A stretch of DNA of 64,000 bases from Herbaspirillum rubrisubalbicans (GTDB lineage: Bacteria > Pseudomonadota > Gammaproteobacteria > Burkholderiales > Burkholderiaceae_D), in the NCBI RefSeq assembly GCF_003719195.1, contig NZ_CP024996.1, forward strand, positions 3,844,001-3,908,000, in the 5' to 3' direction. Below the pieces are notes generated by a model, which had not been told where the DNA came from, did not search any database, and saw only the letters and a list, made by a program, of their open reading frames with translations. Position numbers and translations under genes: made by a program. This document shows positions 4,034 through 30,509 of this stretch, in pieces (position 1 is the stretch's first letter; every line of letters begins with the position of its first letter).

Positions 4034-4070
4034 TCCGTCATTGCTAAGTGACGTATACAAATTTTACTCT

Positions 4071-8414: not shown

Positions 8415-9999
<1,585 letters not shown>

Positions 10000-10012
10000 T
10001 CTGAAGAAAATG

Positions 10013-10041
10013 ATTATAGGACAGCTAAAAACGGAATGCAA
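10013..10041 (-). promoter_or_regulatory. Promoter of tRNA-fMet
   Basis: On the minus strand TTGCAT (10036-10041) and TATAAT (10013-10018) are separated by 17 bases, placing the start about 7 bases before the tRNA 5' end. The promoter is outside the prophage, so integration left tRNA expression intact. Confidence 0.8.
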
Positions 10042-10199
10042 ACATTTTCTGCAATCTTTTTACAGTGATACACTCCTAACCGCATTACGGCTTCCAGGAT
10101 TGCCACGCACGGGGCGGCGAAAGCAACCCATCCCAGCCCTATCCATCGCAATCCGGGGCCATCCCATCTTCTATATATACAGCCACGATCCGAGCCTCT

Positions 10200-10766
10200 A
10201 TGAAATTCTGTTCCGAGTGCGGTCAGACAGTATCCCAGCAGATTCCTCCCGATGACACGCGGCTACGCTACGTCTGCAGCAATTGCGGGGCGATCCATTA
10301 TCAGAATCCAAAGATGGTGGTCGGCTCCATCCCGGTGTGGGAACAGGATGGCCAGGTCAAGGTGCTGCTATGCAAGCGTGCCATCGAGCCACGCCTGGGT
10401 TATTGGACTCTGCCGGCCGGTTTCATGGAGAACGATGAAACCACCGAAGACGCCGCCCGTCGCGAAACCGAGGAAGAAGCCGGCGCCCGCGTCCAGTTGC
10501 ATGAGCTCTTTTCCCTGGTGAACGTGCCGCACGTGCATCAGGTCCACCTGTTCTATCGCGCTACCCTGCTCGACCTCGACTACCACGCCGGCGTCGAAAG
10601 CCTGGAAGTGGAGCTCTATACAGAAGCACAGATCCCCTGGCAGGACATCGCTTTTCCCACGGTGGAGTTCACCCTGCGCGCCTTCTTCGCCGATATGAAG
10701 AAAGTGCGCAGCGGGGAAGGCGGCTTCACGCTGCACACCGAAGACATCCGCCGCCGCATGATCTGA
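10200..10766 (+). CDS. Nudix hydrolase with zinc ribbon
   Basis: 188 residues. A zinc ribbon at the N-terminus (CSEC at 4-7, CSNC at 26-29) precedes a complete Nudix box at 74-96 (GFMENDETTEDAARRETEEE and on to AGA). It hydrolyses a nucleoside diphosphate linked to another group. The layout resembles NADH pyrophosphatase and ADP-ribose pyrophosphatase relatives, but the substrate cannot be told. The gene is 16 bases ahead of aat and probably cotranscribed with it. Confidence 0.9.
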   Translation: MKFCSECGQTVSQQIPPDDTRLRYVCSNCGAIHYQNPKMVVGSIPVWEQDGQVKVLLCKRAIEPRLGYWTLPAGFMENDETTEDAARRETEEEAGARVQLHELFSLVNVPHVHQVHLFYRATLLDLDYHAGVESLEVELYTEAQIPWQDIAFPTVEFTLRAFFADMKKVRSGEGGFTLHTEDIRRRMI

Positions 10767-19524: not shown

Positions 19525-21345
19525 ATGGGCCAGTTATCCTTCAGCAAAAAGCTGTGGCTGCCACTCGGGCTTAGCCTCATCGCACTACTGGCGACTTCCA
19601 TCTTCAGTGCCTTCATGGTGCGCGACGTGCGCCTGCAGGAACGCAAGACCGACCTTACCAACATCGGCCAGACCGCGCTCTCGCTGGTGAAGGCCTACGG
19701 CACCCTGGCCGAGAGCGGTGCCTTGAGCAAGGAAGAAGCGCAGCAGCGCGCCAAGGCCGCCATCAAAAGCCTGCGCTATGGTACCGATGGCTATTTCTCG
19801 ATCTCCACCTCGCAGCAGATCATCGTCATGCACCCGATCAAGACCGAGCTGGATGGCAAGGATCTGACCAACTTCAAGGATCCGGCCGGTACCAACCTGT
19901 TCGTGGAAATCAGCAAGGCCGGCAGCAAACCGGGCGGCAGCTTCGTCAGCTATCTCTGGCCCAAGGTGGGTGCGGCCGAACCGGTGCCCAAGACGTCCTT
20001 CGTGATCGCCTACCAGCCCTGGGACTGGAACCTGACCACTGGCGCCTACATGGATGACATCAACGCCGCCTTCATGGGTACGCTGACCCGCATGGCGATC
20101 CTGTTCGCCGTGGTAGCCGCCGCACTGGTGGCACTGGTGATCGTGATCAACCGCGGCATCCTGCGCACCATCGGCGGCGATCCGGCCAAGGCAGCCGAAG
20201 TCGCCAACCGCATCGCCCAGGGCGACCTCACCCCCAACATCGACACCCAGCCGGGCGACCAGAGCAGCCTGCTCTATGCGGTACGCGGTATGCGCGACTC
20301 GCTGCTCTCTACTATCGCCAACATCAAGAGTTCAGCCACGACCATCGCCTCGGCCAGCCATGAAATTGCCCGCGGCAACCTGGACCTGTCGGGCCGCACC
20401 GAACAGCAGGCCGGCTCCCTGGAAGAAACCGCCTCGGCCATGGAAGAACTGACCGCTACGGTCAAGCAGAACGCCGACAACGCGCGCCAAGCCAACCAGT
20501 TGGCCGAGTCAGCTTCGGAAGTGGCGATCCAGGGCGGCAGCGTGGTCGGCCAGGTGGTGCAGACCATGGAAGGCATCACCGAGAGCTCACGCAAGATTGC
20601 CGACATCATCGGCGTGATCGACGGCATCGCCTTCCAGACCAACATTCTGGCCCTGAACGCCGCCGTGGAAGCGGCCCGTGCCGGCGAACAGGGACGCGGC
20701 TTTGCGGTGGTGGCCTCCGAAGTGCGCTCGCTGGCTCAGCGTTCGGCCTCGGCCGCCAAGGAAATCAAGACCTTGATCGATGACTCCGTGGCCAAGGTCG
20801 ATTCGGGTAGCAAGCTGGTGGAACAGGCCGGCACCACCATGACCGAAGTGGTGGCCAGCGTGCGCCGCGTGACCGACATCGTCGGCGAGATCAGCTCGGC
20901 CAGCCAGGAGCAAAGTGCCGGCATTGCAGAAGTAGGCCGTGCCATCACGCAGATGGATGAAGGCACGCAGCAGAACGCCGCACTGGTGGAACAAGCGGCT
21001 GCCGCTGCCCAGTCCTTGCAGGACCAGGCCGCCACCCTGGCCGGCCTGGTCGGTCGCTTCCAGATCGATGGCAGCCAGGCCCACGCGGTGCAGGCCGCAC
21101 CTGCTGCTGCAGTGAAGTCAGCCGCCTCCAAGCCGGCTGCACGTCCGACAACCACCGCTGCGCCAAGTCCGGCGCAGCGCAAGCCGGTTGCCGCCCACCC
21201 GGCCATTGCCGCCCCCAAGGCAGCCGCGCCCAAAGCCGCGGCAGCACCGACCGCCAAAGCCGAGGCACCCGCCACCAAAGCCGCTGGCAAATCAGCATCG
21301 CGCCTGCCGGCCGGAGAAGATGAGGGAGATTGGGAAACCTTCTGA
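19525..21345 (+). CDS. Methyl-accepting chemotaxis protein with CheR tether
   Basis: 606 residues; GGGAGA site before the ATG. TM1 about 10-32, periplasmic sCache_2-type sensor about 35-185 ([44 protein letters not shown]), TM2 about 190-212, then HAMP and a signalling domain. The hairpin tip reads [21 protein letters not shown] long Ala/Pro-rich linker ends in GDWETF, the CheR-binding pentapeptide type, so it can be a high-abundance receptor that recruits the methylase. Ligand unknown; Cache_2 receptors often bind carboxylates. Confidence 0.95.
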
Positions 21346-21403: not shown

Positions 21404-22045
21404 TTACCAGCGCAGCAGGCGCGGCCCCAGCAGCAACCCTGCTGCAGCCGGGATGACCATACCCAGGAAATACCAGATGCCCCAGAACGGCACCTCCATT
21501 TCCGGGCAATGCAGGCAATACACCATGGTGGCCGAAGCGCCGGCCAGCAGGCCCGCTACCGCGCCGGTCAGGCGCAGCCGGGTCGGCGCCATGCCGCGCA
21601 CGGCCCAGAAGATGCCGATGAACAGCGGTACCGACAAGAGCGCGATATTGAAGGGGCAGCTACGCCAGCTGATCCCCAACACCAGCGGCAGGCGTTGCGC
21701 CAGCGGGGTGCTCACCAGCACCAGCGCGCCCGCGGCCCAGATCGCCAGGCTCGGCAGCGCGATGCCGGCCCAGTTGAGGCCCACTCGCAGACCGGGTCGC
21801 ACCAGGCGCCGCAGCACCAGCATCGCGCCGATGGCCAGGGTGGTCGGGAAGGCCAGCTTGATCCAGAACAGCGGCACGCCCAGCATCACCGACAGGTCCG
21901 GCCGCAGGCCGTAGATGGTCAGCATCAGGATCAGTGCCCCGACGCCGCCCAGGACCAGCGCCTGGAGCATTTGCCTCATCGGCAAGCGACGATCCACCGG
22001 CGCCACGCCGCTGGCCATCATGGAAATGAGGTCGTCCGTCTTCAT
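21404..22045 (-). CDS. NrsF/DUF1109 anti-sigma factor, copy 1
   Basis: 213 residues with about six membrane spans. NrsF proteins hold an ECF sigma factor at the membrane and release it under metal or oxidative stress. It carries the family's two conserved cysteine sites (SWRSCPF and [15 protein letters not shown]; the second has an extra Cys). The start overlaps the sigma gene stop by four bases (ATGA). It is third in the leftward operon. Confidence 0.9.
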
Positions 22046-22674
22046 GCTTGCAATTTCTCCCGAATCTTGAGGGCCAGGGCCTTGAGGCCGCGGTGGATAC
22101 CTACTTTCACGGCCGACTCCGACATCCCCGTCAGTTGTGCCGTCTCGGCCACCGACAAGCCTTCCAGCTTGACGTGCAGGATCGGCAGGCGCTGCTTGTC
22201 CGGCAATTCTTCCAGCAAGGCACCAACATCGCGCCGGGCCTGGGCCGGTTCATCGTCGCAGGTGGCCAGCAGCTCGTGCTCTTCGTCCAGCGGATCGTGG
22301 AAGGCCTCGCGGCGCGAACGCGCGCGCAGGAAATCCATCAGCTTGTAGCGCGCAATGGCATGTACCCAGGCCGTCACCGGCTGGTCGGCGTGATAGGTAT
22401 GACGGGCATTGTGGATGGCCAGCAGGGTTTCCTGCACCACGTCTTCGACTTCATCCTGCAAGTGTAAAAGGCGTTTGCGCAGGAAGGCGCGCAAGCGCCC
22501 GCTCAATTCGGCCAGGAAGTTGCGATAGGCTACCGCATCGCCATCAAGCCCGGCCAAAAGCAACGTGCGCAGGCGTTCTTCGGTGGGATGCACAGGCTCC
22601 TGGCCGGGACGGCCCGACACCTCCTGCGGCAACGCCGAGGCGGAACGGGCCAACAGGAATGGACTCTCGCTCAT
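22042..22674 (-). CDS. ECF sigma factor, SigF-like
   Basis: 210 residues from ATG 22674; a TTG at 22689 is an alternative. Region 2 (about 55-120: [20 protein letters not shown] and [20 protein letters not shown]) and region 4 (about 145-205: [36 protein letters not shown]). It has no extended C-terminal domain. It lies between two NrsF genes and is divergent from the bufferin operon. The two matching promoters in the divergent region are the likely targets, giving autoregulation. Confidence 0.92.
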
Positions 22675-22689
22675 GGAAACGCCGCCCAA

Positions 22690-23355
22690 TCACCAACGCA
22701 GCAGCCAGGGGCCGCACCAGGCGCCGGCCAGCGTCGGCAGCAGCACCCCCAGTACATACCAGACACCCCAGAAGGGAGGCGCCATCTCGACGCAATAGAG
22801 CGTATAGACTAGCACGCCCTGCGCTCCCGCCACCAATCCGGCCACCGCGCCCGCGGCGCGCAGTCGGGTGGGCGCGAAACCGCGCAGGAACCACAGCATG
22901 GTAGCCAGGGTGGGCAGCGACAGCAGCGCCACGTTCAAAGAACAGACTTCCCAACTGCTGCCCAGCAACAGCTCCAGCCGCTGCGAGGGAGGCGCCAGCG
23001 CCAGCCAGCTGCCGCCGGCCAGCCACAGCACGGCCGGTGGCAGCAGCAGCGCCGTAGCCGGCCCCAGGCCGATGCGCATCCCCGGCCGCGCCAGGCGCGC
23101 CGCCGCTACCTGAGCGGCCAGCAGCGCGGCCAGCGGGAACGAGACCTTCATCCAGAACAGCGGCTGCTGCAGCAACTGCCGCAAGTCGCTGCGCACCCCA
23201 TACAGGATGGCCAGCAACAGCGCCGCTCCCAGCAGGCCCAGCGCCAACGCCACGGCCATGCGCGCGGCGGCATGGCGTGCCACGGCGCGGTTGTCGGCAT
23301 CGGCTTGGCGACCGGTGCCGGTGGCCAGCATGTTGACCAGTTCCATCGTTTTCAT
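22690..23355 (-). CDS. NrsF/DUF1109 anti-sigma factor, copy 2
   Basis: 221 residues, about six membrane spans, same family as the product of 21404-22045 and of similar layout (PLFWMKVSFP, SSWEVCSLN, TLYCVEMAPPFWGVWY). It keeps one Cys at each of the two conserved sites. First gene of the leftward operon; its stop abuts the sigma gene. Two NrsF proteins for one sigma factor is unusual. Confidence 0.9.
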   Translation of the reverse strand: MKTMELVNMLATGTGRQADADNRAVARHAAARMAVALALGLLGAALLLAILYGVRSDLRQLLQQPLFWMKVSFPLAALLAAQVAAARLARPGMRIGLGPATALLLPPAVLWLAGGSWLALAPPSQRLELLLGSSWEVCSLNVALLSLPTLATMLWFLRGFAPTRLRAAGAVAGLVAGAQGVLVYTLYCVEMAPPFWGVWYVLGVLLPTLAGAWCGPWLLRW

Positions 23356-23412
23356 TCATATCCCCTGTAGACCCATGGCGGGCGGGCTGCACCCAGTGGC
23401 GCTCTCCTGTCT

Positions 23413-23439
23413 ATTCGTTCAGAAACGGCTTCCGGTTAC
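23413..23439 (-). promoter_or_regulatory. Sigma-F-type promoter of the nrsF-sigF-nrsF operon
   Basis: On the minus strand GTAACC (23434-23439) and CGAAT (23413-23417) are separated by exactly 16 bases, facing the leftward operon. It is identical in boxes and spacing to the rightward copy at 23484-23510. Confidence 0.75.
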
Positions 23440-23483
23440 AGCAGCCAGCAAAAATATTTATCGAAAAAATCTGCAGCCCCGCT

Positions 23484-23510
23484 GTAACCGAACCCCAGCC
23501 CCCGGCGAAT
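23484..23510 (+). promoter_or_regulatory. Sigma-F-type promoter of the bufferin operon
   Basis: GTAACC (23484-23489), 16 bases, CGAAT (23506-23510), about 87 bases before the precursor gene. It matches the GTAACC-N16-CGAA motif I recall for Caulobacter SigF targets. Confidence 0.75.
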
Positions 23511-23597
23511 TAACCAGCAGACCGGCCAACAGGCAAGCAAGCTAGTTGGCACCGGTCACTGTCGTCTTCCCCATTCTCTCTTTTCAAGGAGTACACC

Positions 23598-23876
23598 ATG
23601 AACAATCGTATCGTCGCCACCGCCGCCCTGACCCTCGCTACCCTGGCCTCAGGCGTGGCCATGGCGCAAGACAAGCAACCGATGAACAAACCGGCGATGG
23701 AAAAGTGCTATGGCGTGTCCATGGCCGGCCAGAACGACTGCAAGGCGGGCGAAGGCACCACCTGCGCCGGCACTGCCAAGATGGATTACCAGGGCAACGC
23801 CTGGAAGAACGTCCCGGCCGGCACCTGCACCTCCATCAAGACCCCGCGCGGCATGGGTTCGCTCAAGCCGATCTGA
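23598..23876 (+). CDS. bufA: Bufferin-type RiPP precursor (DUF2282)
   Basis: 92 residues; AAGGAG site 8 bases upstream. A Sec signal peptide (about 1-23, ending AMA before QDKQP) is unusual for a RiPP and typical of bufferins. The core carries four cysteines, C37, C48, C56 and C77, in the family pattern [27 protein letters not shown] and PAGTCTSIK. In the studied family, cysteines are turned into thiooxazoles by an MNIO enzyme and the exported peptide binds copper in the periplasm. Modification here is inferred from the neighbouring genes. Confidence 0.9.
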
Positions 23877-23887
23877 GCGAGTCCGCC

Positions 23888-24751
23888 ATGACAGCGCACA
23901 CCATCACGGCCGGCCTGGGCTTGAAACCCCAGCACTTCGACGCGGCCCTGGCCTGCACCGCCTCGGGTCTGTGGTTCGAAGTCCATCCCGAGAATTACCT
24001 GATGGATGGCGGCCCGCGCCTGGCCTGGTTGCAGGCCATCCGCGAACAGCATCCGCTGGCCTTGCATGGGGTGTCGTTGTCCTTGGCCGGGCCCGATGCG
24101 CCCGATCCCGAGCACCTGCGCCAACTGGCGCAACTGGCGGCGCGCATCGAACCGGTGCTGGTCTCGGAACACCTGGCCTGGTCGCGCAATGATGGTCACT
24201 ACCTGCCCGACCTGCTGCCGGTGCCGCGCACCAGCGACACCCTGGCGCGACTGGCGGCCAACATCGGCCGCACCCAGGATGTGCTCAAGCGGCGCATCGC
24301 CCTGGAGAATCCTTCCCATTACCTGCACATGGAGCAGCATGGCTGGAGTGAACCAGACTTCCTGCAGGAACTGGTGCGCCGCACCGGCTGCGGCCTGCTG
24401 GTGGACGTCAACAATGTTCACGTCAGCGCCACCAACCTGGGATTGGATGCGCATGACTACCTGGATCAACTGCCGGCCTCAGCCATCCTCGAAATCCATC
24501 TGGCCGGCCACAGTGCCGACGCCAGCCTGCCAGGCCTGTTGATCGATTCGCACGACGCACCGGTGGCGCCGGTGGTATGGGCGCTTTACCAGTACCTGAT
24601 CGAGCGCATCGGCCGGCGCCCGACGCTCATCGAACGCGATGGCCAGGTACCGTCCTTTGCCACCCTGCTGGCCGAGCGCAGCCAGGCCAGCGCAATGCTG
24701 GCCGAGCGCAGCCAGGCCAGCGCAATGCTGGCCCAGGAGCAGCCCGCATGA
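23888..24751 (+). CDS. bufB: MNIO (DUF692) RiPP-modifying oxidase
   Basis: 287 residues from ATG 23888. Multinuclear non-haem iron oxidase of the MbnB/BufB/HvfB family, TIM-barrel fold. Probable iron ligands lie in LHGVSLSL, VSEHLAWS, IALENPSHY, LLVDVNNVHVSA and EIHLAGHS; all are intact. It would act on the precursor made by the gene 11 bases upstream. The C-terminus contains a 10-residue unit repeated exactly (LAERSQASAM twice) from a 30-bp tandem duplication, outside the catalytic domain. It overlaps the next gene by four bases. Confidence 0.93.
   Translation: MTAHTITAGLGLKPQHFDAALACTASGLWFEVHPENYLMDGGPRLAWLQAIREQHPLALHGVSLSLAGPDAPDPEHLRQLAQLAARIEPVLVSEHLAWSRNDGHYLPDLLPVPRTSDTLARLAANIGRTQDVLKRRIALENPSHYLHMEQHGWSEPDFLQELVRRTGCGLLVDVNNVHVSATNLGLDAHDYLDQLPASAILEIHLAGHSADASLPGLLIDSHDAPVAPVVWALYQYLIERIGRRPTLIERDGQVPSFATLLAERSQASAMLAERSQASAMLAQEQPA
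24668..24727 (+). repeat. 30-bp exact tandem duplication in bufB
   Basis: Two identical 30-bp units (24668-24697 and 24698-24727) keep the frame and add ten residues near the end of the protein. A third copy begins (CTGGCC) and then diverges. A candidate for strain-to-strain length variation. Confidence 0.95.
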
Positions 24752-25527
24752 ACGCCCCCGAACATGCTTATTACGCCGCCTTCGTGCAAGCCCTGCTCGA
24801 CGGCCATTGCGATGCCCCGACCGTAGCCGCGCTATCGCGCCAGCCAGCCTTTGCGGTCTATCGCAATACCGTCTTCAAGGGCTGCGTCGATGCCCTGCTG
24901 GCCAATTACCCCGCCGTGCACCGGCTGGTAGGCAGCGCCTGGATGCAGGCCACGGCGCTGGACTATGCGCGAGCGCACCTGCCGCGCCAGGCCAGCCTGA
25001 TCGCCTATGGGGACGGTTTCGCCGATTTTCTTCATACACTGGAAGCAGTAAGTGAACTTCCCTACCTGCCCGGCGTGGCCGCACTGGATCGCTGCTGGAC
25101 CGAATCCCACCTGGCTGCCGACCAGCCGGCGCTGGACGTGGCGGCCCTGCACAGGGCGCTGGCCGCGGGGCAGGATGTGCAATTGGTGCCGCACGCAGCC
25201 ACGCGCTGGCACCACGATGCACAGCATCCCATCTACAGCATCTGGGCCGCCAATCGCCAGCAAGACGAACACGAGGCGGTCAACGACAACCTCAGCGACG
25301 AATTCGCCCCGCACTGGCAAGGCGAAGGCGCCCTGCACACCCGCGTGGACGGCCAAGTCCAATGGCAAGCCTTGAGCCTGGGCGGATGCCGCTTCCTGGC
25401 TGCCTGCCGCGACGGCTACAGCATCGCCAGCGCAGCCGAGCAGGCGCTGACGCAAGAACCCGACCTGGAGATGGCGGCCATGCTGGGCCAGTTGGTCCAG
25501 GCTGCGGCCTTCACTTCCTTTTATTGA
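24748..25527 (+). CDS. bufC: DUF2063 RiPP partner protein
   Basis: 259 residues from ATG 24748, in an ATGA overlap with bufB. BufC/HvfC proteins pair with the MNIO enzyme and help it recognise the precursor. The N-terminal DUF2063 pattern is clear ([39 protein letters not shown]). The C-terminal half is a beta-rich domain as in longer BufC proteins. Always found with DUF692 partners. Confidence 0.9.
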
Positions 25528-25538
25528 TGGAGAACCCC

Positions 25539-26009
25539 ATGAACCAGCCCGTCACCCTGCAGCCCATGGCACCCTTGCGCCCCACCCTCTACGCGCGCGC
25601 TGCCGACCTGGCCACGCGCCTCATCAGCGACACCTTGCTGGCCCTGGTGGCGCGCGTAGCGATCGCCTCGATCTTCTTCCTGTCCGGCCGTACCAAGGTC
25701 ACCGGCTTGCTGGACATCAAGGACAGTACCTACGTCCTGTTCCAGGAGGAATATCGCCTGCCGCTAGTGCCGCCCGAACTGGCCGCGCACCTGGCCACCT
25801 ATGCCGAGCACTTCTTCCCGCTGCTGCTCATCCTCGGCCTGTTCACCCGCGGTGCCGCGCTGGCACTACTAGGCATGACGGCGGTCATCGAGATCTTCGT
25901 CTATCCCGATGCCTGGCCCACCCATCTGTCCTGGGCCGGCCTGCTCCTGCTGTTGGTAGCACGCGGTGCTGGCGCCTGGTCGCTGGACCGTCGCTTCGGC
26001 CTGCGCTGA
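25539..26009 (+). CDS. DoxX family membrane protein of the bufferin operon
   Basis: 156 residues from ATG 25539 (GGAGA 6 bases upstream). Four membrane spans in the DoxX pattern ([40 protein letters not shown]). DoxX genes commonly close bufferin operons, probably as a quinone-linked or redox membrane component; the exact task is unknown. Confidence 0.88.
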
Positions 26010-27362
26010 ATGCAACCGGAGCCCCACGTGATGCCTTCCAGCGCCCTGCGCGAGATCGTCGAAGAAAGCTTCAGCGAAGCCTTCACCCACCATGTCGCCG
26101 GCCGGCTCGACCAGGCCGAAGAGCACTACCGCGTCGCCCTCGACCTGGATGAACGGCATGGTCCCTCGCAACACTATCTGGGTATCCTGCTGCACCAGCA
26201 GGGCCAGCACGAAGCCGCCCTGGCGTTGATGCATCAGGCCAGCCAATCGAGGCCAGCCAACGCCGACTGGTGCAACGATCTGGGCAATGTGCTGTTTGCC
26301 TGCCAGCAGTTCGAGCAGGCGGTGCAGGCCTATGAGCAGGCGCTGGTCTTGCGCCCCGAGGATGCGCAGTTGTGGACCAACCTCGGCGCTGCACGTCGCG
26401 CCCAGGGACAGGCCGATGCCGCCATTGCCGCCTGCCAACGCGCCCTGGCGCTGACACCGCAGTACCTGCCGGCCTTGCAGCAACTGGCCGAACTCTACGC
26501 GCAACAGGGCCACACCATGCTCAGTTCGCGCTACCAGTGCATGGCCTACGTATTGCCACCGCATGAAGGCAAGTCGCGCGAATTGCTGGCAACCTGCTGC
26601 TACTTTCTCGGCCGCATCGATGAAGCCGCCGAGATATGCCGTCAGTGGCTGCTGGAAGAACCGGGCCATCCCATCGCCAGCCACATGCACGCCGCCTACG
26701 CCGGACTGCCCCGCCAGACCGTGCCGCGCGACTACATCGTGCGCCGCTTCGATGACTATGCCGATCATTTCGATAGCAAGCTGCTGGCCCAGCTCGACTA
26801 TCGCGGCCCGCAAGTGCTGGCCCAGGTATTGCAGGGCTGCCTGCCCGGCTTGAGCGGCCTGGACGTGCTCGACGCCGGCTGCGGCACCGGCCTGTGTGCG
26901 GCGGTGCTGGCGCATTATGCGCGTCGGCTGGAGGGCATCGACCTCTCGCCCAACATGCTGCGCCACGCTGCCCGCCATCCGCACTACAGCACGCTGGCCC
27001 AGGCTGAGGTGGTGGAATGGATGGTGGCCCATCCTGCGCACTACGATCTGGTGGCCGCCTGTGATGTGCTGATCTATTGCGGCCAGTTGGTCGATTTCTT
27101 CGAGGCGCTGCGCACGACCCTGCGGCGCGGCGGTCATGTGATCTTCACGGTGGAACTGGCCGATGCCGACCAACAGGCCAGCTATACCCTGCACGCCAGT
27201 GGACGCTTTCGCCACCAGCGTAGCTATGTGGAAAAGTGTCTGTCCGCAGCGGGCTTGCAGGTGGTGCTGATGCGCGAGGACAGCCTGCGCGTGGAAATGC
27301 AGCAGGCCGTGCCGGGCCTGGTGGTGTTGGCGCGGGCCGCTGACACCGAAGAGCCAGGCTGA
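26010..27362 (+). CDS. TPR-repeat SAM-dependent methyltransferase
   Basis: 450 residues; begins immediately after the DoxX stop, so it is probably in the same operon. About residues 20-210 form TPR repeats (AVQAYEQALVLRPEDAQLWT, NLGAARRAQGQADAAIAACQ). A class I methyltransferase domain follows (about 275-440): LDVLDAGCGTGLCAAVLA is the SAM-binding motif I, EGIDLSPNMLRHA motif II and YDLVAACDVLIYCG motif III. The substrate is not known. Its place at the end of the bufferin operon raises methylation of the peptide or of a partner, but that is speculation. Confidence 0.85.
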   Translation: MQPEPHVMPSSALREIVEESFSEAFTHHVAGRLDQAEEHYRVALDLDERHGPSQHYLGILLHQQGQHEAALALMHQASQSRPANADWCNDLGNVLFACQQFEQAVQAYEQALVLRPEDAQLWTNLGAARRAQGQADAAIAACQRALALTPQYLPALQQLAELYAQQGHTMLSSRYQCMAYVLPPHEGKSRELLATCCYFLGRIDEAAEICRQWLLEEPGHPIASHMHAAYAGLPRQTVPRDYIVRRFDDYADHFDSKLLAQLDYRGPQVLAQVLQGCLPGLSGLDVLDAGCGTGLCAAVLAHYARRLEGIDLSPNMLRHAARHPHYSTLAQAEVVEWMVAHPAHYDLVAACDVLIYCGQLVDFFEALRTTLRRGGHVIFTVELADADQQASYTLHASGRFRHQRSYVEKCLSAAGLQVVLMREDSLRVEMQQAVPGLVVLARAADTEEPG

Positions 27363-27715
27363 TGAACGCCACAAAACTCATCAATGGTCGCTGCGCCTGG
27401 ACCGCCTTGTCAGAGTTCAGAGGTCAAAGCTCAGAGATCAGATGAGTATCCTTCGAATTTCAGCAATCATTCCTTTAGATCTCTGCCCCCTTGGCAAGGC
27501 AAGCCATTCCAGCATGTCCACAGTGCAACAAGGATGAATTTTCTTGCACATTTCGTCGCACTTTTCCCCTTAGGGGCAGTCGTACCGGCATTCGGCATGG
27601 CTTAGAATAGCCGAAGCTCACGACGTAATCGATTGATACGCACCGGTCTGCGCGCACGATGAATCCCCGCCATTGGCGCCGCGCAAACAGTGCGACATCT
27701 GAAAAGGAAAACGGA
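27363..27715 (+). other. Gene-free stretch
   Basis: 353 bases with lower GC than the neighbours. Contains short AG/TC-rich near-repeats (TCAGAGGTCAAAGCTCAGAG) at about 27413-27435. No coding, terminator with T-run or tRNA seen. Confidence 0.5.
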
Positions 27716-27904
27716 ATGACGCAGTCCCCAAAAAACATCTCGGAGCTGATGTGTGAGCTCAGCGTGGCGCTAGCCGATCTGTCGGAGAAGATGAGCAATC
27801 TCTCGGTCACGCTGGAAAACAGCTATCTCGAATCCGACGCTCCAGAACCGGCAGCCATGATGGAAGCCGCGCGCGAAACCATCGAAAAGGCACGCGGCAG
27901 CTGA
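27716..27904 (+). CDS. Small acidic helical protein, unknown
   Basis: 62 residues from ATG 27716 with an AAGGAAAACGGA site. Mostly one amphipathic helix (ELSVALADLSEKMSNLSVTL), likely coiled coil; no signal or membrane span. No family recognised; it stands alone. Confidence 0.6.
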   Translation: MTQSPKNISELMCELSVALADLSEKMSNLSVTLENSYLESDAPEPAAMMEAARETIEKARGS

Positions 27905-28031: not shown

Positions 28032-30302
28032 TCAAAAGTTGTACTTCAACTCGGCAAAGACCGTGCGTTGCGGGAAGGGATGGAACAGGAAGTAATCCCG
28101 GTTGGTCAGGTTGTCCACCCCCATCGCACCGCTCCAGTGCTGGTCGAAGCGGTAACGCACCCGCGCATCGAAGACGGTGTAACCATCGAAGCCCTGGTAG
28201 GTATGGGTATTGATGTCGGTATTGTCCACGGTGGCATAGACGCGGCCGCTGTAGCGCCCGGCCAGGGTATAGGTCCAGCGGTCGTCGGGCTTGTAGCTGG
28301 CCACCAGCGTGGCGCGCCATTCGGGCACATAGGGCGTACGCTTGCCCACCGACGTCGCCCCTGGAATGGTGGCGACGTAGCCGCGGTTTTCCAGGATGCG
28401 GGCATCGACCCAGGTCAGGCTGCCATTGAGCGAGAAGCCGCGCAGCAGCAGGTCGTTACGCTCGAAGGCGGCTTCGATGCCACGCTGGCGGGTACGGTCC
28501 ACGTTCTGGGTGAAGGAAGCCACGCCACTGCCGATAGTGGACGATTGCGAAATCAGCGCATCGGCCACCCGCTCCTCGAACAGCGATACGCGCCACTTGC
28601 CCTGCCCTTGTTGTAACTGTTTTTCGATGGCCAGTTCGGTTGACCAGACTTTCTCGGGCTTCAGGTTCGGATTGGCCTGCAGGAATACACCATTGACCTG
28701 CACGTTCTGGTACAGCTCGCCCACCGTGGGAAAGCGCAGTGCGCGTCCGGTGGACAGCGTGGCCAGCCAGTCGTCGGCCACGGCCCAGGCCAGCGAAGCC
28801 TTGGGCGAGAGACCGTTGTGACTGATCTGGGGCTGGCTGACCGCGAAACCGGTATTGCCCGCCGTCGAATAATTGCTGCCATCGAAGGCGCGCCACCATT
28901 CATAACGCGCACCGAGGGTGGCTTTCCAGGCGGGGGCGAGATGCCATACATCCTGCGCCCACAAGGCCGAGGTCTCGGTCTTGCCGCGCGAATCGGCATT
29001 GAGCGTGCCATTGCCACCGCTGATCCAGTTGCTGGTATTCCAGGTCGGCGTGGCCAGCGTATAGCGGTCGTAGTGCGCACCGAAGCTGATCACCTGATTC
29101 ACCCCTTGCGGCCGCCAGATGCCCTTGGCGTCCAGCGTGCTCCAGCCGGTGCCGCTGGCGTCGGCAATGGTGCCGGCACCGCCGCCCAGACCGGCCGGGA
29201 AGGCCGCCGTGGATGTGCGGGTCAGGTCGCGCGAAGCCGACAGGGTCGAGGCCTGCACTTGCCAATCCCATGGCCCGCCGGTCTTGCTGCGCAAGGCCAG
29301 CGACTGCATCCACTGCTGCTGGTCCACCTGGTTGCTAGAGAAGCCGCTGGTATAGACGGTAGCCCCGGCCGCATTGCGCAGGAAACTCTGCGGATTGGCA
29401 TTGGCCTGGTTCTGCCAGAAACCCAGCGTATAGGTGGCCGTGAGGCTGGGGGTGAAGTCATAGGAGAACTTCAAGCGCGCCGTATCCTGCACCGTATGCG
29501 TGAGGTTGCCCGCGCCCAGCACGTAGAGGTTCTTGCCGGTGCGATCCTGCGTCTGCACCGCGCCGGTGGTACCCGCCGGGTTGCTGGCGGCAGTGATGTA
29601 GGTCACCGGTTGCGTATAGCTGTCCAGATGATTGACCGAGAAACGCCAGGCCAGCGCCCCGCTACGGTTACCCAAACCGACGTTGTACTCCTGAGCGCGA
29701 TAGGTACCGGAAGCACCGTAGTGGCTGAAGTCCTGCTGCGCATACTGGGCCTTGATGCTGGCCTCGAACTGCTGCGGCATCCGAGTGGTGATCTCGGTGA
29801 CTGCACCATAGGAGTTGCCCGGATACTCGGCGGCAAAGGGGCCATACATCACATCGATGCGTTCGATTTCTTCCGGCGCCACCATGAACCAGCGCGGCGA
29901 ACCATTGCCATTGTTGTTGTTCACCAGCGCCGAGAGCAGGATGCCATCGGCATAGACCAGGCTGCGCGCACTGGCGTTGACGCCCGTGGTGCGGGTAGCC
30001 AGCGGCGCTTGCGTGTCGCCGATGTAGCGCTTGCGCACGGTCAGGCTGGGCAGGTATTTGAGGGCGTCCGAACTGTCGGTGACGTTGATGCTAGCGGCGG
30101 CGGTGTCGGCGGTGACGCTGGCGCTGGTCTGCGGCAATTGATCGCGTTCGGCCACCGAACCACTGCCGCGCACCTCGATGGTGGGCAAATCGGTGGCCGC
30201 TTGCTGGGCCAGGGCACTACTGCTCCAGGCACACAGGATGGCCAGCAGCAAGGGACGGCGATTCAATCTGGGAAAGCAGGAAGAAGGCAACGGCGGAGTC
30301 AT
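28032..30302 (-). CDS. TonB-dependent outer-membrane receptor
   Basis: 756 residues from ATG 30302, chosen because a signal peptide (RRPLLLAILCAWSSSALAQQ) then sits near the start; ATG 30386 would add 28 residues. Plug domain about 45-170 (LPTIEVRGSGSVAERDQL, YADGILLSAL, ERIDVMYGPFAAEYPGNSYG), then a 22-strand barrel ending in the Phe-terminated VFAELKYNF. The substrate is not evident; there are no neighbouring transport genes. The distance from the bufferin operon (about 700 bp, opposite strand) does not prove a copper role. Confidence 0.88.
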   Translation of the reverse strand: MTPPLPSSCFPRLNRRPLLLAILCAWSSSALAQQAATDLPTIEVRGSGSVAERDQLPQTSASVTADTAAASINVTDSSDALKYLPSLTVRKRYIGDTQAPLATRTTGVNASARSLVYADGILLSALVNNNNGNGSPRWFMVAPEEIERIDVMYGPFAAEYPGNSYGAVTEITTRMPQQFEASIKAQYAQQDFSHYGASGTYRAQEYNVGLGNRSGALAWRFSVNHLDSYTQPVTYITAASNPAGTTGAVQTQDRTGKNLYVLGAGNLTHTVQDTARLKFSYDFTPSLTATYTLGFWQNQANANPQSFLRNAAGATVYTSGFSSNQVDQQQWMQSLALRSKTGGPWDWQVQASTLSASRDLTRTSTAAFPAGLGGGAGTIADASGTGWSTLDAKGIWRPQGVNQVISFGAHYDRYTLATPTWNTSNWISGGNGTLNADSRGKTETSALWAQDVWHLAPAWKATLGARYEWWRAFDGSNYSTAGNTGFAVSQPQISHNGLSPKASLAWAVADDWLATLSTGRALRFPTVGELYQNVQVNGVFLQANPNLKPEKVWSTELAIEKQLQQGQGKWRVSLFEERVADALISQSSTIGSGVASFTQNVDRTRQRGIEAAFERNDLLLRGFSLNGSLTWVDARILENRGYVATIPGATSVGKRTPYVPEWRATLVASYKPDDRWTYTLAGRYSGRVYATVDNTDINTHTYQGFDGYTVFDARVRYRFDQHWSGAMGVDNLTNRDYFLFHPFPQRTVFAELKYNF

Positions 30303-30509
30303 GGCGGCGATATCTTGGTGTGATCGGGAAGCGCGCGCAGTCGCACCCGCGACCGCCGTGGCGTTCGCACTCCCCGTTTTTTTCATCGGCGCAATCTATC
30401 ACGCAGCCTGCGCGCCGCGCGCCAGCAGCCATGCTGCCAGCTGGCAAGAGCACCGTGCACCGGCATAAAAAACCCTTTTCGAACAAGGATTTAGCGTCGG
30501 CATCGGACG

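Follow-up and report, generated by a model that had tools for sequence, protein, structure and literature searches.

A predicted sigma-F-controlled Buf1 bufferin operon in Herbaspirillum, facing a sigma gene flanked by two NrsF anti-sigma lineages

Bufferins, gig operons and the SigF regulon are already known biology, and they frame the locus described here. Peptides of the Buf1 type bear thiooxazoles that chelate copper (PMC12452194). In Caulobacter, mutation of sigF makes cells sensitive to copper, and the SigF regulon is induced by copper (PMC8224329). The sigma-F site of this organism reads GTAACC-N16-CGAA, and two promoters of this kind have been fixed by 5'-RACE (PMC3511200). The gig operon of Cupriavidus metallidurans is copper-induced as well (PMC10304878). 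Here, we analyse a stretch of 64,000 nucleotides from Herbaspirillum rubrisubalbicans (the window; positions 3844001-3908000 of a single-contig 5.62-Mb genome). Window positions 21404-27362 hold a complete Buf1 (DUF2282) bufferin operon, bufA-bufB(MNIO)-bufC(DUF2063)-doxX, opposite an extracytoplasmic function (ECF) sigma gene with two NrsF genes. We consider it very probable (about 0.86) that this is a sigma-F-controlled operon for periplasmic copper sequestration.

Five genes, bufA, bufB, bufC, doxX and tprMT, run head to tail on the plus strand. On the minus strand lie nrsF1, ecf and nrsF2, with a divergent gap of 242 bp between nrsF1 and bufA:

21404..22045, minus strand: nrsF2, NrsF/DUF1109 anti-sigma, the sigma-distal copy (PF06532 5.6e-71; 'dn' clade of the tree; alignment)
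22042..22674, minus strand: ecf, SigF/RpoQ-like ECF sigma (Sigma70_r2/r4_2; NCBIfam PRK12536.1 327.3 bits, cut-off 250; sigma tree)
22690..23355, minus strand: nrsF1, second NrsF, the promoter-proximal copy (PF06532 7.5e-64; 'up' clade of the tree; alignment)
23414..23439, minus strand: SigF-type promoter GTAACC-N16-CGAA of nrsF1-ecf-nrsF2 (exact match; 58 bp before nrsF1)
23484..23509, plus strand: SigF-type promoter GTAACC-N16-CGAA of the buf operon (exact match; 88 bp before bufA)
23598..23876, plus strand: bufA, Buf1 (DUF2282) bufferin precursor, 92 aa (PF10048 1.7e-25)
23888..24751, plus strand: bufB, MNIO (DUF692) maturase, 287 aa (PF05114, MbnB_TglH_ChrH, 7.8e-99; NF050167; 3bww alignment)
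24748..25527, plus strand: bufC, DUF2063 partner protein, 259 aa (PF09836 6e-21)
25527..26009, plus strand: doxX, gigT-like membrane protein (PF07681 9.9e-18)
26010..27362, plus strand: tprMT, TPR superhelix fused to a class I S-adenosylmethionine (SAM) methyltransferase, 450 aa (TPR and Methyltransf_11/25 Pfam domains)

As read from the sequence, bufB starts at ATG 23888 and bufC overlaps it by ATGA (24748). The start of doxX is either 25527 (TGATG) or 25539, and the profile scan of this gene covered 25530-26009; ecf has an alternative TTG start at 22689. A preliminary description of this DNA, made from the letters alone, had proposed a complete bufferin-type (MNIO) locus facing ECF sigma and NrsF genes. 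Pfam and NCBIfam bear this out, with every gene it named lying inside 21404-27362, both NrsF genes matching PF06532 and the sigma protein showing sigma70 regions 2 and 4. The profile searches it suggested for DUF2282, DUF692 and DUF2063 all gave matches, so that its naming of the families stands. The fifth gene, tprMT, closes the same range and was unnamed in its reasoning.

BufA matches PF10048 with 89.2 bits (cut-off 22.4) and has four cysteines, at residues 37, 48, 56 and 77. Residues 1-23 appear to form a Sec signal ending AMA at residue 23, with Q next, a call made by eye only. The precursor thus agrees with the DUF2282 protein with Sec signal and four cysteines described earlier; its unmodified residues 24-92 have a computed average mass of 7255.3 Da. 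Against the BufA2 model NF050166 it scores 26 bits (cut-off 60), which places it outside Buf2, whose peptides have six conserved cysteines (PMC12452194) rather than four.

BufB passes the NCBIfam MNIO_BufB equivalog NF050167 with 358.9 bits (cut-off 310). Its motifs HG-SLSL, S-E-HL, EN-S-YLH, DVNN-V, IH-AGH, D-H and ERD align with the solved structure 3bww, where a few exchanges are seen (SDHL, ENTSYYLH, DVNNIYV, DTHG, ERDF). These motifs agree with the earlier reading of a DUF692 oxidase, and they include its putative iron ligands. The 3' end of bufB contains a perfect 30-base tandem duplication (window 24668-24727), and the C-terminus is ten residues longer (LAERSQASAM twice). BufC scores 75 bits against PF09836 (cut-off 27.2), and both the DUF2063 partner and the DoxX protein of the preliminary description are recovered. 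Scores for HvfB (225.6, cut-off 360) and HvfC (19.7, cut-off 142) fall short of HvfABC/oxazolin membership in NCBIfam. By its profile scores, the window locus is of the Buf1 (DUF2282) type and not of the Hvf/oxazolin type.

A whole-genome search found no second MNIO, DUF2282 or NrsF match elsewhere in the 5.62 Mb, and the single DUF2282 and single MNIO match rule out extra bufferins in trans for this genome. The TonB receptor gene next door (28032-30386) was considered as a copper-type receptor and rejected, as it scores 35.1 bits against TIGR01778 (cut-off 472).

Control by SigF, likewise proposed earlier, is well supported by the promoter sequences. The 242-bp gap between nrsF1 and bufA contains two exact GTAACC-N16-CGAA sites, back to back and pointing apart, so that SigF-type promoters precede both the sigma operon and its target operon, as expected of a SigF (ECF16)/NrsF system. 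The ECF16-type label of ecf is taken from the NrsF partner and the promoter, not from an ECF-group model. The promoter motif accords with (T/C)GTAAC-N17-CGAA, given for sigma/NrsF systems (PMC8315932). In the genus, 27/27 bufferin loci, taken from 24 genomes and including the window, have both sites. Each of the four patterns used as controls, of which two have reversed letters and two the spacers N15 and N17, occurs in 0/27 loci on either strand. The genus loci were chosen from NrsF and methyltransferase matches and not drawn at random. Seven genus genomes (G294-G300) lie outside the DUF2282 search, and NrsF matches led to three of them. Not among the 27 are the DUF2282 locus of G287, which lacks an NrsF match, and a further partial locus from G275 (L115), where both promoter sites are again present.

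Across the whole genome there are eight exact sites, compared with ten for the pattern read backwards. Two of the eight lie in this one gap, and the other six are inside open frames of 485-839 aa (longest covering frame). Given this distribution and the empty control patterns, we reject a chance origin of the pair. A sigma-70 promoter scan of 23300-27720 gave 0 sites (0.7 in shuffles), and terminator-like sites in the same interval show no excess (3, against 2.7 in shuffles).

The same signature is present in the closest studied relative. The gig/rpoQ gap of C. metallidurans CH34 has two divergent exact sites (L117:3982-4007, minus strand, and 4042-4067, plus strand). A 2023 study of this organism stated that the gig promoter had yet to be identified and that control by RpoQ was an assumption (PMC10304878). 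The two CH34 sites are likely to be the missing gig promoter and its divergent counterpart, and they provide a usable promoter prediction. Among the open-licence papers listed by a literature search, only PMC3511200 combines both motif halves with NrsF and RpoQ.

Taken together, a simple scheme can be proposed. The membrane anti-sigmas NrsF1 and NrsF2 would sense periplasmic metal or oxidant stress and release the ECF sigma factor. The freed sigma would then fire the two back-to-back promoters, one driving nrsF1-ecf-nrsF2 as feedback and the other bufA-bufB-bufC-doxX-tprMT. BufB, aided by BufC, may turn the cysteines of BufA into thiooxazoles in the cytoplasm, and export of the peptide by Sec would allow excess copper to be sequestered in the periplasm. 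The sequence itself establishes the gene identities, the spacing of the operon, the promoter sites and their conservation. By analogy with the described systems, we infer that the BufA of this strain is modified, copper-binding and copper-induced.

Among the 27 genus loci, nrsF lies on both sides of ecf in 18, six have only the downstream copy and three are cut or partial (L078, L079, L081). In the NrsF tree (69 proteins), a single branch (support 99/94) splits the upstream copies (23 rows) from the downstream copies (43 rows); three rows are unlabelled. Three family members outside the genus have only an upstream-type NrsF, in the order nrsF-ecf. In the sigma tree, a quick tree without bootstrap, these three form one group of 30 with all 21 dual loci and six downstream-only loci (SH-aLRT 99), and 16 downstream-only sigmas fall apart from it. 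The simplest reading of these trees is a single origin of the dual nrsF-ecf-nrsF arrangement, followed by thinning.

Both signal cysteine columns are invariant in the 67/67 NrsF rows of the four groups compared (2/69 rows belong to no group), and the two cysteines matter for signalling in Caulobacter (PMC3511200) and Brucella (PMC8315932). NrsF2 retains C130, C180 and a C-x-H-C-P motif. NrsF1 keeps the two signal cysteines and is without the C177, H179 and P181 of NrsF2. His179 is present in 28/28 genus NrsF2 rows, where 19/19 NrsF1 rows have Tyr. The position of Pro181 is Val in 15/19 NrsF1 rows, and the NrsF1 motif is mostly S/T-x-Y-C-V. This suggests that NrsF1 and NrsF2 may be two sensors of different tuning. 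In locus L064, a gene that looks TetR-like by eye (9704-10288) lies antiparallel between nrsF1 and ecf and splits the sigma operon; the same is seen in L059 and L070.

The gene tprMT adjoins doxX without a gap and is the last of the run. The distance from doxX is 0, 9 and 3 bases in the window, L057 and L063, with the frame open, and GCGTG is invariant in 9/9 aligned proteins. In G196, tprMT was seen by search and on the locus map and is outside the gap table because its open frame extends beyond the gene. Among the 24 genus genomes with a doxX-bearing bufferin locus, ten have an intact tprMT at the locus, one has a remnant and 13 have none. Matches of 42-47% identity occur in 23/34 genus genomes, and the window genome itself has an unlinked 44% paralogue (G000:C1:1908620-1909900; L084:8573-9904). 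By its distribution, tprMT is an accessory gene and not part of the core.

If the two NrsF proteins were redundant copies and the methyltransferase a mere bystander, neither would matter to bufferin function. This is the strongest of the alternatives, and we regard it as a real though less probable possibility. The six loci that keep only the downstream NrsF speak for it, as do the patchy presence of tprMT and its unlinked relatives. Against this, each of the two NrsF lineages is conserved in its own right, and NrsF1 combines both cysteines with Tyr for His179 in all 19 rows, a pattern not explained by random decay. The open, closely spaced tprMT frame and its invariant motif point the same way.

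For copper as the signal, the reading of a sigma-F-controlled copper-sequestering operon is supported by the Caulobacter work (PMC8224329, PMC12452194) and the gig work (PMC10304878). Several observations weigh against it. At this locus, the HvfC, HvfX and NrsF-equivalog NCBIfam models score below their cut-offs. Antisense to nrsF1, a 112-aa open frame also covers the promoter pair, so that position in an open frame alone cannot dismiss the other six genomic sites. In C. metallidurans, metal-treated cells expressed gig more strongly once rpoQ was deleted, and rpoQ was reported to be RpoD-dependent (PMC10304878), so that sigma control is unproven even for the closest relative studied. Hypochlorite or reactive oxygen triggers related sigma/NrsF systems elsewhere (PMC8315932), and the Caulobacter SigF regulon is also induced by chromium and cadmium (PMC3511200); copper therefore need not be the natural signal.

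These responses raise the alternative that periplasmic oxidants such as hypochlorite and reactive oxygen, or other soft metals, are the main signals for the locus, with the peptide serving as a thiol/thiooxazole sink instead of a copper buffer. The Brucella and Azospira systems respond to reactive chlorine, several of them sharing Msr genes (PMC8315932), and the name gig originally referred to gold (PMC12452194). However, no further exact-match target such as msrPQ emerged in the window genome, where the six other sites are in long frames (msr genes were not searched for). In the parts of the Caulobacter studies used here, the sigma-F genes showed no induction by generators of reactive oxygen (PMC3511200), and loss of sigF gave a copper phenotype but no chromium or cadmium phenotype (PMC8224329). 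We therefore consider this alternative unlikely.

With nine sequences as input, AlphaFold confidently models tprMT, at a mean pLDDT of 91.8, as a TPR superhelix joined to a class I methyltransferase. In a fold search, the TPR part resembles MamA and PilF, and the methyltransferase part ChlM, NTMT1, UbiG and NodS, all within about 2 Z units, so that no specific function was singled out. Among the matches listed (25 of 32), no methyltransferase model passes its NCBIfam cut-off (for example, daptide methyltransferase 24.9 against 175, UbiG 42.5 against 102.95), while generic Pfam class I domains do. That the enzyme methylates the bufferin or a partner protein and yields a tailored variant is distinctly improbable: the gapless operon position, a TPR superhelix of a kind that often binds peptides and the likeness to protein N-terminal methyltransferases such as NTMT1 are in its favour, but small-molecule enzymes have similar Z, the fold does not tell the substrate, the gene is at the bufferin locus in only ten of the 24 genomes and otherwise elsewhere, and the main text of the gene-cluster survey names no methyltransferase (PMC12452194).

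A further accessory gene is found in sister loci. Of the 24 genus genomes, 12 encode a chemoreceptor of about 540 aa directly after doxX (for example L013:5337-6965, L071:8165-9790, L094:2807-4432 and L114:5772-7331; L056 and L064 on the locus map only), and in 6/12 of these tprMT comes after it. Two scanned bufferin-linked receptors consist of a TarH-type sensor, HAMP and an MCP signal domain. The sensor domain is present in 14/294 family genomes; 13 of the 14 matches lie within about 2.3 kb of a same-strand DUF2282 match, and the fourteenth about 330 bp after an NrsF gene. The linkage of chemoreceptor and bufferin is a sound association of gene positions. A metal site was looked for in the sensor domain, and 17 aligned domains share no conserved Cys. 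The sensor-domain search did not find a bufferin-linked receptor in the window genome, and a role for the window chemoreceptor gene at 19525-21345 was set aside, as its sensor is of the sCache type and not TarH-like as in the two scanned receptors. Among the papers listed by a literature search, none links chemoreceptors to bufferins. The words chemoreceptor, chemotaxis, methyl-accepting, tetratricopeptide and methyltransferase are absent from the main text of the survey (PMC12452194).

In two reduced second loci (L115:1801-4849 and L078:3489-6525), the chemoreceptor gene comes directly after bufA, and nrsF1 lies on the other side of the shared promoter pair; tblastn found no bufB or bufC alongside. 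Outside the family, a plasmid of Pseudomonas sp. CIP-10, typed as conjugative, has a second DUF2282 gene followed by a different, 643-aa chemoreceptor gene (L119:1-2266), a few kb from a bufferin operon.

These add-on genes invite a more elaborate model, in which NrsF1 and NrsF2 read different signals via the changed motif and the sigma fires only when both release it, tprMT methylates the bufferin or its machinery, and the chemoreceptor of sister loci ties copper buffering to swimming. We hold such a two-input, tailored system to be very doubtful. The upstream NrsF is missing from 6/27 loci, with three further cut or partial, and tprMT from the bufferin locus of 13/24 genomes, with a remnant in one more. 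Of the 65 family genomes outside the genus in which NrsF gave a match, 2 have tandem NrsF genes, both from a single genus, as judged by match positions with at most 10 candidates per genome scored. An order-wide search for the sensor domain gave one weak match in 399 genomes (23% identity), and no bufferin or NrsF gene was seen in its 3.6-kb locus (L112).

The predicted sigma-F-controlled copper bufferin operon has consequences beyond the window. The bufferin operons of the genus, of C. metallidurans and of Caulobacter share one promoter signature, and exact promoters can now be predicted for the gig operon, for which the 2023 study had not settled sigma control (PMC10304878). The nrsF-ecf-nrsF unit offers a natural example of an ECF sigma with diverged anti-sigmas on both sides, and tprMT here and the chemoreceptor in relatives are leads to bufferin accessory functions.

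The closest described system is gigPABT/rpoQ-rsqA of C. metallidurans, which has the same gene order, a divergent ECF sigma with an NrsF-type anti-sigma and both GTAACC-N16-CGAA sites, with identities to the window proteins of 68% (BufB), 74% (DoxX) and 60% (NrsF). It differs in having a single NrsF, downstream of sigma, and tblastn found no TPR-methyltransferase in the 9.8-kb stretch. Caulobacter CC3252-CC3257 shares DUF2282-DUF692-DUF2063-DoxX beside sigF-nrsF and the identical promoter motif (PMC3511200). Unlike the window genome with its single MNIO, it has a second buf cluster, as well as one NrsF and msrPQ under SigF. HvfABC/oxazolin/captophorin operons (names partly from PMC13097082) have in common an MNIO with a DUF2063 partner, a Sec-exported cysteine peptide and a DoxX relative, but their peptides carry EGKCG repeats whereas the window precursor is a DUF2282 protein. 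The doubling of NrsF is not unique to the genus. The pASEM-1 locus of Asticcacaulis excentricus also pairs a single ECF sigma with two NrsF genes in tandem, adjacent to bufferin genes, but in the order sigma-nrsF-nrsF and with CGTA as the -10, whereas in the window one NrsF lies on each side of sigma. Relative to the literature passages considered, a sigma gene between two distinct NrsF lineages and a gapless TPR-methyltransferase after doxX are new. With its doubled and diverged anti-sigma and its accessory genes, this locus is a variant of a well-described kind.

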